Shown: positions 2 through 5,272 of the stretch, one piece after another
Layout of the letters: every line of letters starts with the position of its first letter
Position numbering within the stretch: the stretch's first letter is position 1
Assembly: GCA_902530985.1 (NCBI GenBank)
Contig: CACACI010000012.1
Coordinates: 1 to 34,277 of the forward strand
Direction: 5' to 3'
Origin: an uncultured Alphaproteobacteria bacterium
GTDB taxonomy: Bacteria; Pseudomonadota; Alphaproteobacteria; Methylaequorales; Methylaequoraceae
Length of the DNA: 34,277 nt
Position numbers and translations under genes: made by a program
Notes under the pieces: generated by a model
What the model was told of the DNA's origin: nothing
Seen by the model: only the letters and a program-made list of their open reading frames with translations
Databases searched by the model: none

Positions 2-520
2 ACCAAGGAAGGACAAAGTTTTTGGCTTTTCAACCCGCAAAAGTTAAAGAAAGAATTAGGAAATTTTAATGAAATTAAAAATTATAAATTTAATTTAGAA
101 TGGAATGGAGTTTTAGTTATAGAAATTGAAGAAGAAAAACCATTCATGAAATGGATTGAAGAAAATCGTAAAAACTATATAGATAAAAACGGGAACCTTC
201 TCAAACTTGATATCGAAAATTCTAATTTTAAAGTGATAAAACTTTATGGAAAAGCAGCAAATACTAATATAGCCAAATTAAATAAAACCTTATTAAATTA
301 TAAAAAAATTGTCCCTAAAATAAGCTCAATTAAATTTGAAAATAATATTGGATGGAAAATCAACTTTGATGATAATAATTGTATTTATCTTCCTCTAAAA
401 GAACTTGATAAATTATTAAATATATTTGAAAATATATCAAATTCAGAAATATATAATAAATTCAACCTTTTTGATTTAAGGGTGATAGGAAGAATTTACA
501 TGAGTAATAAAAAATGTTGA
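2..520 (+). CDS. ftsQ: Cell division protein FtsQ, C-terminal part (5' truncated)
   Basis: The reading frame is open from base 2, so the gene begins outside the window; 172 residues are visible. FtsQ is a single-pass inner-membrane divisome protein that links FtsA/FtsZ-side components to FtsB/FtsL and the septal wall enzymes. The visible part matches the end of the POTRA domain and the following beta domain: an N-terminal stretch with FWLF, then KPFMKW and a YIDKNGNLL segment (the family's 'lid..G' motif), ending with FDLRVIGRIY, which resembles the FtsQ 'DLR' end. The signal anchor is not in the window. An internal ATG at 146 gives a shorter frame but would cut the POTRA domain, so it is not the start. 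The stop overlaps the ftsA start by 7 bases, which suggests translational coupling. Identification rests on motifs and on position before ftsA. Confidence 0.85.
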   Translation, partial: TKEGQSFWLFNPQKLKKELGNFNEIKNYKFNLEWNGVLVIEIEEEKPFMKWIEENRKNYIDKNGNLLKLDIENSNFKVIKLYGKAANTNIAKLNKTLLNYKKIVPKISSIKFENNIGWKINFDDNNCIYLPLKELDKLLNIFENISNSEIYNKFNLFDLRVIGRIYMSNKKC

Positions 521-1737
521 AACTTATCTCAAACCAAAAAAAATATTGCGTGTTTGATATTGGTACTGACAAGGTCGCTTGTTTGATATTCAAAATTGAA
601 AAAAATAGGCCTTTTATTATTGGAATGGACCATCAAAAAAGTTGGGGTTTCTTTAACAATAATATTGTTGATGAAAAAAAACTCTCTAAAACTATTTCAA
701 AAGCCCTAAAAAAAAGCCTGCCCAAAAATATAAGTCAAAAAGATTTTATCTTTTTCAGTAATATTACTGATGCTAATTTAGTAACTAGAAAAAATTATAC
801 TGATTTAAACGCTGGCAAATTAGGAATATCTAAAAAAGATGTAAGAAAAATCTATAAAAAATCTATTATTGAATCTAAAGTAAAAGGTAAACACCTTATA
901 CACTCATATCCCATAAATTTTCGAATAAATGATAAGAAAGTAATAGATGATCCAGTAGGTGAAAAGTGTACAAAATTTGGTATATCATCACTTAATATTA
1001 TGGTGGATAGTCAATTACATCAAAAATTAAATAATTGTTTTAAAAGCCAGCAAATAGAAATAAAAAATTTTTTTGATACAGGACTGGCCTCAGCGTTAGC
1101 TAATTTAACTGACAATGAAAAAAATGAGGGTGTTGCATGCATTGACATCGGTTCAACATCATCAAAAGTAATAGTTTTCATTAATAATAAGGTTGTTTAT
1201 TCGAATACTATTCCTATTGGTGGAGAACATGTGACAAATGATATTTCTAAAGGATTAGAAATTTCAAAAGAATCCGCTGAACACGCCAAAATTATAAATG
1301 GGACTCTTGCTCTACCTTTTAATGAAAAAATCTCTATTAATTCCAATCAGAATGAAGATAAGGTTATAAGTAAAAATCTACTTTACGGAATCGTCAAGCC
1401 AAGATACGAAGAAATATTGGAAATTATAAGGGATTATATTTTTGATGATATTTATGCAAGGGTAAGTATTAAATCAATAGTGATTACTGGGGGTGCAAGC
1501 AAAATTTCAGGACTTTTAAAAATATCTGAGAGTATTCTAAATAGAAAAGTGAGAATCGGTAAAGTTTCTAATAAAGAAAGTTTTTTTTATAATAAACCTG
1601 AATTCAGTACTTTATTAGGATTAATTAAACTTGCTCGAGACAATAAGAAATATGAATACTCTAATGAACTAATAAAAGGGAATATATTTACTGTATTTGA
1701 TAAATTAGAAAATTGGATTGAAGAAAGTTACGCATAA
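514..1737 (+). CDS. ftsA: Cell division protein FtsA (actin-like membrane anchor for FtsZ)
   Basis: FtsA is an actin-fold ATPase that polymerises under the membrane, tethers FtsZ and recruits late divisome proteins. In this 407-residue protein I see the phosphate-1 motif FDIGTDKVA near residue 15, the phosphate-2 motif CIDIGSTSSK near residue 209, and the adenosine motif VITGGASKISG near residue 325. The C-terminus carries a short amphipathic helix ending NWIEESYA, the usual membrane-targeting sequence. It lies between ftsQ (7-base overlap) and lpxC (67-base gap). In most Alphaproteobacteria ftsZ sits directly after ftsA; here it does not, although the FtsZ partner is expected somewhere in the genome. 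The start is the ATG overlapping the ftsQ stop. The product call is secure. Confidence 0.95.
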   Translation: MLKLISNQKKYCVFDIGTDKVACLIFKIEKNRPFIIGMDHQKSWGFFNNNIVDEKKLSKTISKALKKSLPKNISQKDFIFFSNITDANLVTRKNYTDLNAGKLGISKKDVRKIYKKSIIESKVKGKHLIHSYPINFRINDKKVIDDPVGEKCTKFGISSLNIMVDSQLHQKLNNCFKSQQIEIKNFFDTGLASALANLTDNEKNEGVACIDIGSTSSKVIVFINNKVVYSNTIPIGGEHVTNDISKGLEISKESAEHAKIINGTLALPFNEKISINSNQNEDKVISKNLLYGIVKPRYEEILEIIRDYIFDDIYARVSIKSIVITGGASKISGLLKISESILNRKVRIGKVSNKESFFYNKPEFSTLLGLIKLARDNKKYEYSNELIKGNIFTVFDKLENWIEESYA

Positions 1738-1804
1738 TTATTGAAATAAATTGTAACTTATTGTGATTTGATTATTGCATGCTAATTTTGTAAAAAATTA
1801 ACTA

Positions 1805-2737
1805 ATGCTAGTTAAAAAAAAAGAAGTTAAAGAAAACAAGTTATTCGTAGACATCAAACTACCGAAGTTCTTGAGTGCCAGAAGGCAACAAACCCTTAAA
1901 AAATCTCTGAGTTTCAGTGGTATTGGTCTTCATACTGGAAATAAAGTTGATATGAAGCTATCACCAGCACCTCCAGAAACAGGAATTGTATTTAGAAAAA
2001 GAATAAAAAATAAATTATCCTATATTAAAGCAAATTATAAAAATGTTAAATCAACTAAACTTTGCACCATACTCTCTGACTCTGAAGGAAATAGTGTCTC
2101 TACCGTTGAACATATTCTTTCTGCACTTTATGCTTATGAAATTGACAATGTATACATCGATATAAATTCAAATGAAATACCAGTATATGATGGATCTTCA
2201 TTAGAATTTGTAAGAAAATTTGATGATATAGGACTTGAAGAACAAGATTCTTACAAGAAATTTATTAAAATTAAAAAGCATATCGAGGTCCTTGAAGATG
2301 GGAAATCTGCTAGGGTCTCTCCATTTGACAATACATTAATAACAACTGAAATTGAATACCCCCATAAGTTAATAGGTAAACAAACAATTTCTCTGATGTT
2401 AAACCCTAGTATATACCAGTCACAAGTTTGTAGCGCCAGAACTTTTGGTTTCTTAAAAGATGTAGAAAATTTAAGGAAATCTGGTTTAGCATTAGGTGGT
2501 AGTCTTTCCAATGCAATTGTATTAGACGAAACCAAAATACTTAATAAAGAAGGTCTCCGCTTTAGTGATGAGTTTGTTCGTCATAAATTACTAGATTTTA
2601 TTGGAGATATTTCTTTATCAGGTTTTAGAATCCTTGGATCCTTCTTTACTTCACATACAGGCCATTATCTTAACTGTAAACTTATAAATAAAATTTTTGA
2701 ATCTCCCGATAATTGGGAGTTAGTTTGTTCAAATTAA
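1805..2737 (+). CDS. lpxC: UDP-3-O-acyl-N-acetylglucosamine deacetylase LpxC
   Basis: LpxC is the zinc-dependent cytosolic deacetylase that commits UDP-sugar to lipid A synthesis, so this is a Gram-negative cell. Family signatures are all present: GIGLHTG near residue 39, VEHILSAL with catalytic Glu102 and zinc ligand His103, ARTFGF near 211, GLALGGSLSNAIV near 228, RHKLLDFIGD with ligands His260 and Asp264, and the catalytic His287 in THTGH-like context (TSHTGH). At 310 residues it is near family length but carries about 25 extra N-terminal residues before RRQQTLKK. An in-frame TTG at 1871 would give a more typical N-terminus. I kept the ATG at 1805 because neither start has a strong ribosome-binding site. 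It sits directly after ftsA where ftsZ would be expected, and before bamD. Confidence 0.95.
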   Translation: MLVKKKEVKENKLFVDIKLPKFLSARRQQTLKKSLSFSGIGLHTGNKVDMKLSPAPPETGIVFRKRIKNKLSYIKANYKNVKSTKLCTILSDSEGNSVSTVEHILSALYAYEIDNVYIDINSNEIPVYDGSSLEFVRKFDDIGLEEQDSYKKFIKIKKHIEVLEDGKSARVSPFDNTLITTEIEYPHKLIGKQTISLMLNPSIYQSQVCSARTFGFLKDVENLRKSGLALGGSLSNAIVLDETKILNKEGLRFSDEFVRHKLLDFIGDISLSGFRILGSFFTSHTGHYLNCKLINKIFESPDNWELVCSN

Positions 2738-2783: not shown

Positions 2784-3611
2784 ATGAAAAAAAAAGTGTT
2801 GATATTCATACTTTGTTGCATTTTAAACTCATGTTCAACTAATGAAGAGATTAACAATAACTTTTCATCATACAGTGATGTAAGGCTTTACAATGAGGGT
2901 ATGAAAAAACTAAAACAAAGGAAATTTAATGAAGCTATAGATACTTTCACTGAACTGGAAATACAATACCCATATTCCCCATGGGCATCTAGAGGGCAAT
3001 TATTAACTGGTTTTACTCATTATACAGCAAATGAATATGATGAAGCTATCTTAAGTTTGAGCAAATTTATTGAATTAAACCCTAATCATAATTTAATACC
3101 CTATGCAATATATCTTAAAGCCTATTCATATTTTGAGAGAATGCCGGATATTAAGCTTGATCAAAAGTTTTCTGCAAGAGCATATGAAGAATTTTCAGAA
3201 CTTATAAACAGATACCCAAATTCAAAATATTCTAAAAAATCACAAAAACATATTAAAAAACTTAGAAATCATTTAGCAGCTAAAGAAATTAACGTAGGTA
3301 AATTCTATCAATCTGACGGAAACTATTTAGCAGCAATAAAAAGATACAAAACAATCCTTAAGGAATACAGAAAATCTACTTTGATACCCGAATCAATATA
3401 CAGATTAATTGAATCATATGTTTCACTTGGGTTGATGAAGCAATCATATTACCTGTACAAAATATTAGAGTATAATTTCCCTAAATCAAAATGGAAAATA
3501 GAAGGTACTACTTTAGTAAAGAAATATATGTTAAATAAAAATCTTAAAAAATACAAAAAAAGACAACTTGATTTAGAAAAATTACAATCAGCTGATTTTG
3601 ATTTGATTTAA
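2784..3611 (+). CDS. bamD: Outer-membrane assembly lipoprotein BamD (ComL family)
   Basis: BamD is the essential TPR lipoprotein of the BAM complex that folds beta-barrel proteins into the outer membrane. The start MKKKVLIFIL and lipobox LNSC (cysteine at residue 17) show a lipoprotein signal, with attachment to the outer membrane expected. The 275-residue chain has tetratricopeptide-like repeats such as YNEGMKKLKQRKFNEAI, YDEAILSLSKFIELNP, AYEEFSELINRYP and YLAAIKRYKTILKEY, matching the usual BamD layout. It follows lpxC by 46 bases and precedes recN by 2 bases, the standard alphaproteobacterial neighbourhood. The C-terminus is lysine-rich, in line with the base composition. No other family fits better. 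Confidence 0.93.
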   Translation: MKKKVLIFILCCILNSCSTNEEINNNFSSYSDVRLYNEGMKKLKQRKFNEAIDTFTELEIQYPYSPWASRGQLLTGFTHYTANEYDEAILSLSKFIELNPNHNLIPYAIYLKAYSYFERMPDIKLDQKFSARAYEEFSELINRYPNSKYSKKSQKHIKKLRNHLAAKEINVGKFYQSDGNYLAAIKRYKTILKEYRKSTLIPESIYRLIESYVSLGLMKQSYYLYKILEYNFPKSKWKIEGTTLVKKYMLNKNLKKYKKRQLDLEKLQSADFDLI

Positions 3612-3613
3612 TT

Positions 3614-5272
3614 ATGATTAGGCATTTATCTATCAATAATTTGATGTTAGTTGATAAAATTGAAATGGATATTGGTCTTGGCCTCTGCGTTTTAACAGGT
3701 GAAACTGGAGCTGGAAAGTCAATGATACTTGAATCCTTAGAATTAATTTCTGGTAGAAGAATTAAACCTAATTCAAGGCCAGACAGTGGAAAAAAAACTG
3801 TAATCACAGCATTAATTGATATTTCAGATTTTGAAGAAATAAAAGAACTTCTCACAAGACAAGAGATAAATTTTGAAGATGAAATAATTATTAAAAGAAT
3901 TATTGAAAGCGACGGTAAAAGTAAGGCCATCATTAATGATAATATTGTTGGTTTGAACACTCTAAAGGAAATATCAAATTATGTAATAGAAGTGCACAGT
4001 CAATTCTCTGAGCAAGGTCTTCTTGATAATTCAACTCATATAACAACTTTAGATGAATTTGGAGATTATAAAATAGAATTGAAGCAATTATCTAAAATGT
4101 GGAGAGAATATAAGGAAACTCAAAAACAATATATAGATGAAAACACTAAGTCTGAAAATATAAAAAATCAAATAGATGAATACACGCATGATTTAAAAGA
4201 ATTAAAATTGTTAAGTCCAAGAAAAGGTGAATTTTCTGAATTAGAGAAAAAAAGAAAGTTTTTAAAGAATTCAAGAAAAATTAGAGAAAATATAACCCAC
4301 GTCATTGATAATTTTTTAAGAGAAGAACCACCCGGAATAGAAAGTCTTATAACTAAAAATATTGTTATTTTAGATCAGATCAAAGGTTTGGTTGACAATG
4401 AAACTACAAAAGATATTGAAAAACTCAATTCAATTTCTCTTGAAATTTCAGAAATATCAAAGATGTTCGAAAACTTTTTAAGTAAAGAAAACGATGGAGA
4501 TTCTCTTGAAGAAATAGATGACAGAGTAACTTCCTACAAAAGAATTGCGCAGAAACATTCTATTAATGTTGACAACCTTGAAATCAAAATCAATGAGCTT
4601 GAAAGAGATATTAGATTAACTGAGGAAAGTAAACTCTCTCTTGAAAACTTAGCAAAGGAATTAAAAGTTAACCAAGAGAAATACAATACTATGTGCGAAA
4701 AGGTTTCAACAATTAGGAAGAGAAGTGCTGAGTTACTCGATAAGAAAATTAATACAGAGTTCCCTGATCTTAAGCTAGAAAATGCTAAATTCAAAACACT
4801 AATTCAGGAATGTGAACGAACAGAATTGGGTAAAGATAAAGTTGTTTTTAATATAAGGACAAATCCAAAATCAAAAATGGGTGAAATACGAAATATATCC
4901 TCAGGCGGTGAATTGTGTAGAATTGCATTAGCAATCAAAGTTACTGCAGAAAGAAATAATTCTTCTACAATGGTATTTGATGAAGTTGATAGTGGAATTG
5001 GAGGTGCTGTTTCAACAGCTGTTGGAGAAAGATTAAGAAAATTAGGAGAAAAAAGACAGGTTATGGTAGTCACTCATTCCCCTCAGGTAGCATCTTTAGG
5101 TGCAAGTCACTTTTTAGTTAAAAAAAGAATTTTAGAAAATAATATAGCTATTGAAGTCCAGAAAATTGAAGGTGAAGAAAAGACAACTGAAATAGCTAGG
5201 ATGTTATCGGGCAAGCAAATAACTCAAGAAGCAATTCAAGCGGCAAAAAAGTTGATGGAAAACTTTTTTTAA
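3614..5272 (+). CDS. recN: DNA repair protein RecN (SMC-like ATPase)
   Basis: RecN is an SMC-like ATPase that acts on double-strand breaks and sister-chromatid cohesion. This 552-residue protein has the Walker A motif GETGAGKS near residue 30, then a predicted coiled-coil middle (charged heptad-rich stretches about 170-390), then the ABC signature SSGGE followed by CRIALA, the Walker B segment FDEVDSGIGG, and the H-loop segment VVTHSPQVAS. It starts 2 bases after the bamD stop and probably shares its transcript. It ends 7 bases from the end of the convergent aminopeptidase gene. In many Alphaproteobacteria ligA follows recN; here it does not. No SOS box can be assigned because the gene lies inside an operon. 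Confidence 0.96.
   Translation: MIRHLSINNLMLVDKIEMDIGLGLCVLTGETGAGKSMILESLELISGRRIKPNSRPDSGKKTVITALIDISDFEEIKELLTRQEINFEDEIIIKRIIESDGKSKAIINDNIVGLNTLKEISNYVIEVHSQFSEQGLLDNSTHITTLDEFGDYKIELKQLSKMWREYKETQKQYIDENTKSENIKNQIDEYTHDLKELKLLSPRKGEFSELEKKRKFLKNSRKIRENITHVIDNFLREEPPGIESLITKNIVILDQIKGLVDNETTKDIEKLNSISLEISEISKMFENFLSKENDGDSLEEIDDRVTSYKRIAQKHSINVDNLEIKINELERDIRLTEESKLSLENLAKELKVNQEKYNTMCEKVSTIRKRSAELLDKKINTEFPDLKLENAKFKTLIQECERTELGKDKVVFNIRTNPKSKMGEIRNISSGGELCRIALAIKVTAERNNSSTMVFDEVDSGIGGAVSTAVGERLRKLGEKRQVMVVTHSPQVASLGASHFLVKKRILENNIAIEVQKIEGEEKTTEIARMLSGKQITQEAIQAAKKLMENFF

Follow-up and report, generated by a model that had tools for sequence, protein, structure and literature searches.

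The cell-division gene ftsZ lies between mraZ and rsmH, apart from ftsA, in relatives of an uncultured alphaproteobacterium

In the order of small-genome Alphaproteobacteria to which this DNA belongs (Methylaequorales), ftsZ stands at the front of the division and cell wall (dcw) cluster, with mraZ before it and rsmH after it, and not behind ftsA. We consider it very probable that ftsZ was relocated to this place and that the genome analysed here has the same arrangement, with the relevant upstream stretch unassembled. Three parts of this explanation were observed directly, namely the position of ftsZ in relatives, the intactness of their FtsZ and the stretch missing from this assembly. The mraZ-ftsZ-rsmH order thus represents a variant, shared across the family, of a cluster that is well known; it is glimpsed here through an incomplete genome and is moderately surprising because gene order inside the dcw cluster is otherwise very stable.

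The window, by which we mean the whole stretch of DNA that was analysed, is an entire contig (C12) of 34,277 bases with a G+C content of 29%, and it starts within ftsQ. The features of its first part are as follows.

2..520, + strand: ftsQ, 3' part only (PF03799, 32.8 bits; cut-off 21)
514..1737, + strand: ftsA, intact, 407 amino acids (TIGR01174, 208.6 bits; cut-off 175.85)
1738..1804, + strand: gap of 67 bp between ftsA and lpxC, ftsZ absent here; same junction in relatives
1741..1770, + strand: triple direct repeat TGAAA, TGTAA, TGTGA with a 10-bp period, present in 26/26 order genomes
1805..2737, + strand: lpxC (TIGR00325, 312.3 bits; cut-off 187.25)
2784..3611, + strand: bamD (TIGR03302, 238.5 bits; cut-off 81.4)
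3614..5272, + strand: recN, full length (best model TIGR00634, 370.3 bits, below its cut-off of 407.85)

The ftsQ gene is truncated by the first base of the contig (172 amino acids in the window versus 228 in the relative G003), and none of the NCBIfam models searched matched it. A preliminary description of this DNA had reported that ftsA and lpxC stand 67 bases apart without a remnant of ftsZ, in an otherwise regular ftsQ-ftsA-lpxC-bamD-recN order and next to an intact FtsA. The open reading frame coordinates bear this out, as do the three forward frames of 1738-1804, in which a search for the FtsZ tail found no resemblance. Family models match the remaining genes, with RecN under its cut-off, and FtsA both passes its curated cut-off and ends in a C-terminal stretch, FDKLENWIEESYA, that is kept across the window's genus.

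Such a junction might be an assembly error, in which an ftsZ actually present between ftsA and lpxC was dropped, and the fragmentary state of this assembly (1,116,931 bases in 45 contigs, 77.88% complete) speaks for that possibility. We therefore used FtsA and LpxC of the window as queries against 60 relatives. The gap to the first ATG of lpxC is 60-68 bp in 24 of the 26 order genomes measured, the window included; the other two (G018 and G029) lack an early ATG, and a GTG stands at the aligned lpxC start. In a 27th order genome (G022, locus L096), lpxC comes directly after ftsA on another contig. No ftsZ was found directly after ftsA in the window or, among the rest of the order, in the 26 genomes readable there. 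Because 27 of 27 separately assembled order genomes share the short junction, local mis-assembly can be excluded and we regard the junction as genuine, so that the error envisaged in the preliminary description did not materialise. The gap moreover contains a conserved element and relatives carry ftsZ at the opposite end of the cluster, which leaves next to no chance that a gene was dropped here.

The position of ftsZ was determined in an order sample of 32 genomes, all of one family and representing 12 genera. PF00091 was positive in 22 of them, and partial genes in G008 and G026, missed by this model because the GTPase domain is cut off, raise the total to 24. The complete series mraZ-ftsZ-rsmH lies on one strand and one contig in 20 of these 24 genomes, while ftsZ-rsmH stands at a contig edge in G008, G026 and G031. 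G008, the closest genome by FtsA (72%), has a contig that opens with the C-terminal part of ftsZ, before rsmH (PF12327, 99.7 bits); G026 has the FtsZ tail and then rsmH, as read from translation. In G030 (L091 / L140), mraZ and a cut ftsZ are followed by an inverted rsmH at the contig end, which is probably an amplification chimera. Measured to the first ATG, the mraZ-ftsZ gap is 9-19 bp in 20/20 complete cases and the ftsZ-rsmH gap is -1 to 40 bp in 18/20, but not in G014, whose ftsZ is frameshifted, or in G017 (206). Wherever one contig holds both ftsZ and ftsA (15/15 order genomes), ftsZ lies ~15 kb upstream. A comparison with sister genomes had been proposed as a way to date the change; since the arrangement is common to all 24 order genomes with any ftsZ, the relocation is old.

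The cluster of G003 reads N-acetylmuramoyl amidase, RNase P RNA, mraZ, ftsZ, rsmH, a short ftsL-like frame, ftsI, murE, murF, mraY, murD, ftsW, murG, murC, murB, ddl, ftsQ, ftsA and lpxC; family models were used to check the gene names. FtsW falls short of its NCBIfam cut-off (264.1 vs 337.5), yet scores above RodA; FtsI passed PF00905 and matched no NCBIfam equivalog; the ftsL-like frame, matched by no model, was named from its position and size. In G022 (L112 3729-6152), a 2.4-kb frame occupies the place of murG and murC, with only murC called, and is either fused or misassembled.

The relocated gene appears to be a normal one. FtsZ of G003 exceeds the cut-offs of TIGR00065 (382.8 bits; cut-off 295.2), PF00091 (165.6 bits) and PF12327 (97.5 bits), and it contains the tubulin signature GGGTGTG that had been suggested as a search target; the model of the alphaproteobacterial C-terminal extension, TIGR03483, gives 27.9, short of the 62.95 required. 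The C-terminal peptide of FtsZ binds FtsA, and 22 of the 24 genomes carry its tail QIPAFLRRQAN without a change, counting G026 and also G014, where it was found only in a shifted frame, via translation; in the other two it is not readable (undetermined residues in G028, a cut gene in G030). The frameshift of G014 lies in ftsZ before the tail (L079, about 8300) and is either a sequencing error or real. Judged by these models and motifs, ftsZ of the relatives is intact and encodes an ordinary FtsZ.

In the window's own genome, a PF00091 profile search of the whole assembly found no FtsZ (control: 13/14 named genomes positive), and the FtsZ protein of a relative gave no match at E up to 10, in a search that had no positive control. 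Taken with the 7 of 13 genomes of the window's genus in which ftsZ was not found, this could mean that the gene was truly lost in the species or genus, which would divide without FtsZ. The other six members of the genus, however, have ftsZ, whole or partial, and FtsA is intact. In addition, rsmH was sought in the window's genome and not found; it has no MurC-F-type ligases, its sole Mur-ligase-domain gene being folC (TIGR01499, 346.3 bits); and the nearest counterpart there of relatives' cluster-flanking fumC shows 23% identity and is in our judgement a related lyase at most, no true fumC. Because rsmH, murC-F and a true fumC are absent along with ftsZ, this assembly lacks a block that extends at least from fumC to the beginning of ftsQ; ftsZ is missing because the contig starts inside ftsQ and the upstream cluster was not assembled. 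Loss of ftsZ is very unlikely in this light. The preliminary description had preferred a moved ftsZ to division without it, and the 24 of 32 order genomes with ftsZ, 20 of them with the gene between mraZ and rsmH, side with that preference. By analogy with these relatives, the window's genome most likely has ftsZ between mraZ and rsmH too.

The eight order genomes in which ftsZ was not found are all represented by incomplete assemblies (54-86%), including G007 at 86% and G005 at 80%, and seven of them belong to the window's genus. The long ftsA contigs among them end in mraY (G007) or murF (G005), short of the expected place of ftsZ. Contigs of this genus (g1; G001, G005, G007, G011 and G012) repeatedly end between mraY and rsmH, and G001 breaks in mraY and again in rsmH. 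Uneven amplification would be our guess at the cause of these frequent breaks.

We then compared the arrangement with that in other Alphaproteobacteria. The canonical dcw order of the class is mraZ-rsmH-ftsL-ftsI-murE-murF-mraY-murD-ftsW-murG-murC-murB-ddl-ftsQ-ftsA-ftsZ, followed by lpxC. The window's order has the same genes on the same strand, in the same sequence from rsmH to ftsA and then lpxC-bamD-recN, but its ftsZ is second, between mraZ and rsmH, whereas in the canonical cluster it follows ftsA. In a class sample of 289 genomes, both ftsZ and rsmH were placed in 99 among the matches listed (15 of the ftsZ places came from a separate search), 78 of them with both genes on one contig. 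Only these 78 were scored, not the 21 whose two genes fall on separate contigs or the 190 for which the pair of places was incomplete. In 71 of the 78 scorable genomes, rsmH has ftsZ 10-30 kb downstream in the same orientation. The remaining seven are G006 and G019; G163, G184 and G281, with the genes on opposite strands; G311, with the genes 1.37 Mb apart; and G220. Only G006 and G019, both of the window's order, have ftsZ directly upstream of rsmH. Twenty loci, selected for having both places known and canonical spacing, all read rsmH ... ftsA-ftsZ (20/20), with lpxC next in 10. In G184 and G281 (L137, L138), the cluster is split, and mraZ-rsmH-ftsI... diverges from an opposite-strand ftsA-ftsZ-lpxC-bamD ~0.8 kb apart.

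One could reverse the direction of change and regard the position in this order as ancestral and the usual alphaproteobacterial one as derived. A quick LG+G4 tree of eight cluster proteins (39 rows, all with amino-acid composition warnings) recovers the window's order as one group with support 100 and gives some room to this reading, since it places the order on a long branch without resolving the nearest rows. The canonical spacing in 71 of 78 scorable class genomes argues against it, as does the available part of PMC8871954, in which the dcw cluster is reconstructed as ancient with its gene order retained; an ancestral position in this order is therefore highly improbable. According to the same part of that source, the cluster is among the most stable of bacterial gene clusters, and changes in it are mainly losses or departures of genes.

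G220, of family f75, resembles the window's order in that ftsZ has also shifted to the front part of the cluster, but differs in that ftsZ follows rsmH (mraZ-rsmH-ftsL-like-ftsZ-ftsI, L136 8533-11939). This is probably an independent move of a second kind, favoured because the familymates G314 and G105 (the latter in one of its two ftsZ copies) keep ftsA-ftsZ. In the eight-protein tree G220 and G281 are grouped beside the window's order (98, starred), but as an open fork; in view of the ftsA-ftsZ of the familymates, we disfavour a shared origin of the two arrangements. A further likeness is found in Mycoplasma genitalium, where, in the available part of PMC8475190, the order is mraZ-mraW-MG_223-ftsZ with a MraZ operator: ftsZ is also close behind mraZ, but it is the last of four genes, after mraW, in the reduced cluster of a wall-less organism. 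No description of the mraZ-ftsZ-rsmH order was found in the titles and abstracts of the literature searched.

The 67-bp gap holds a clue to what the move left behind. In 26 of 26 order genomes the triple repeat begins 2-9 bases past the ftsA stop, according to a pattern derived from those same sequences. In the assembly of the window's genome the pattern matches exactly once, at this gap, and at three other places with two mismatches; a reversed control pattern gave one match. Within the window alone, with three mismatches allowed, there are 3 matches vs 0.71 expected, a number reached in 6 of 100 shuffles; the match at 1742 has one mismatch and the other two have three each. Similar sequence precedes lpxC in other Alphaproteobacteria: of 17 genomes, 7 have it with 0-1 mismatch, 5 with three and 1 with five, and 4 gave no match, judged by a pattern composed after viewing the sequences, which 0-5 of 100 random windows per locus equal, some possibly including the true site. 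In G057, one of the four without a match, the element was seen by eye further upstream, after ftsZ (L001). In G040, lpxC is 33 kb from ftsZ and the element still stands before lpxC with no mismatch, which indicates that it belongs to lpxC and not to ftsZ. The triple repeat is probably an operator or promoter region of lpxC. If the gap does hold this putative control region, the move would thus have taken ftsZ and left that region behind, as the 67 bp that now separate ftsA from lpxC. The CenR motif, TGA-N8-TGA, is likewise a direct repeat whose half-sites start 10 bp apart, according to the available part of PMC9275681. A CenR operator in the gap was nevertheless set aside: lpxC is absent from that part of the text, and no paper linking lpxC to CenR came up in a literature search.

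The new neighbourhood of ftsZ suggests how it may be expressed. RNase P RNA (RF00010, 294.1 bits in G003) lies directly upstream of mraZ, at the following places in the two genomes scanned with RF00010 (G003 and G001); elsewhere its 3' end was recognised by eye.

L098, 830-1177: RNase P RNA (RF00010)
L073, 2612-2962: RNase P RNA (RF00010)

In the relatives, the RNase P RNA is followed by a T-run and then by repeats of the form TCCCA-N5-TCCCA on the coding strand. We take TGGGA-N5-TGGGA to be the MraZ box motif, of which this is the complement. The predicted MraZ boxes are exact in 16 of the 20 relatives examined and have at most one mismatch in 19; none was found before mraZ in G027. In E. coli, MraZ represses its own cluster, as stated in the available part of PMC8475190. 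A promoter is likely to lie before mraZ, where a loose pattern match picked differing places. With mraZ-ftsZ gaps of 9-19 bp and rsmH usually less than 40 bp behind, ftsZ has little room for a promoter of its own outside the mraZ coding region, and therefore a long transcript subject to MraZ feedback probably yields FtsZ early and FtsA late.

Based on these observations, we propose that, in an ancestor of the order, ftsZ would have moved from between ftsA and lpxC to the front end of its own dcw cluster. We infer that FtsZ is now encoded by the second gene behind a MraZ-controlled promoter, from which it would be transcribed under MraZ feedback, while FtsA would be made ~15 kb further along. 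More tentatively, and with somewhat more doubt than confidence, we suggest that this was a single ancestral move behind the autorepressor gene mraZ, after which MraZ feedback would set the dosage of FtsZ and the distance along the transcript its ratio to FtsA.

The best-known gene of the dcw cluster has thus changed its place within the cluster, and the new order is retained across 12 genera. It should be noted that looking for ftsZ by its position, or within incomplete single-cell assemblies, would falsely yield bacteria without FtsZ. The pairing of ftsA and ftsZ is supposed to reflect translation coupling, promoters inside ftsA or a fixed ratio of the two proteins. With ftsZ split from ftsA and both still in one cluster, these reasons become testable, and if MraZ does set the dosage of FtsZ, the order would constitute a natural experiment on an otherwise so constant gene pair.
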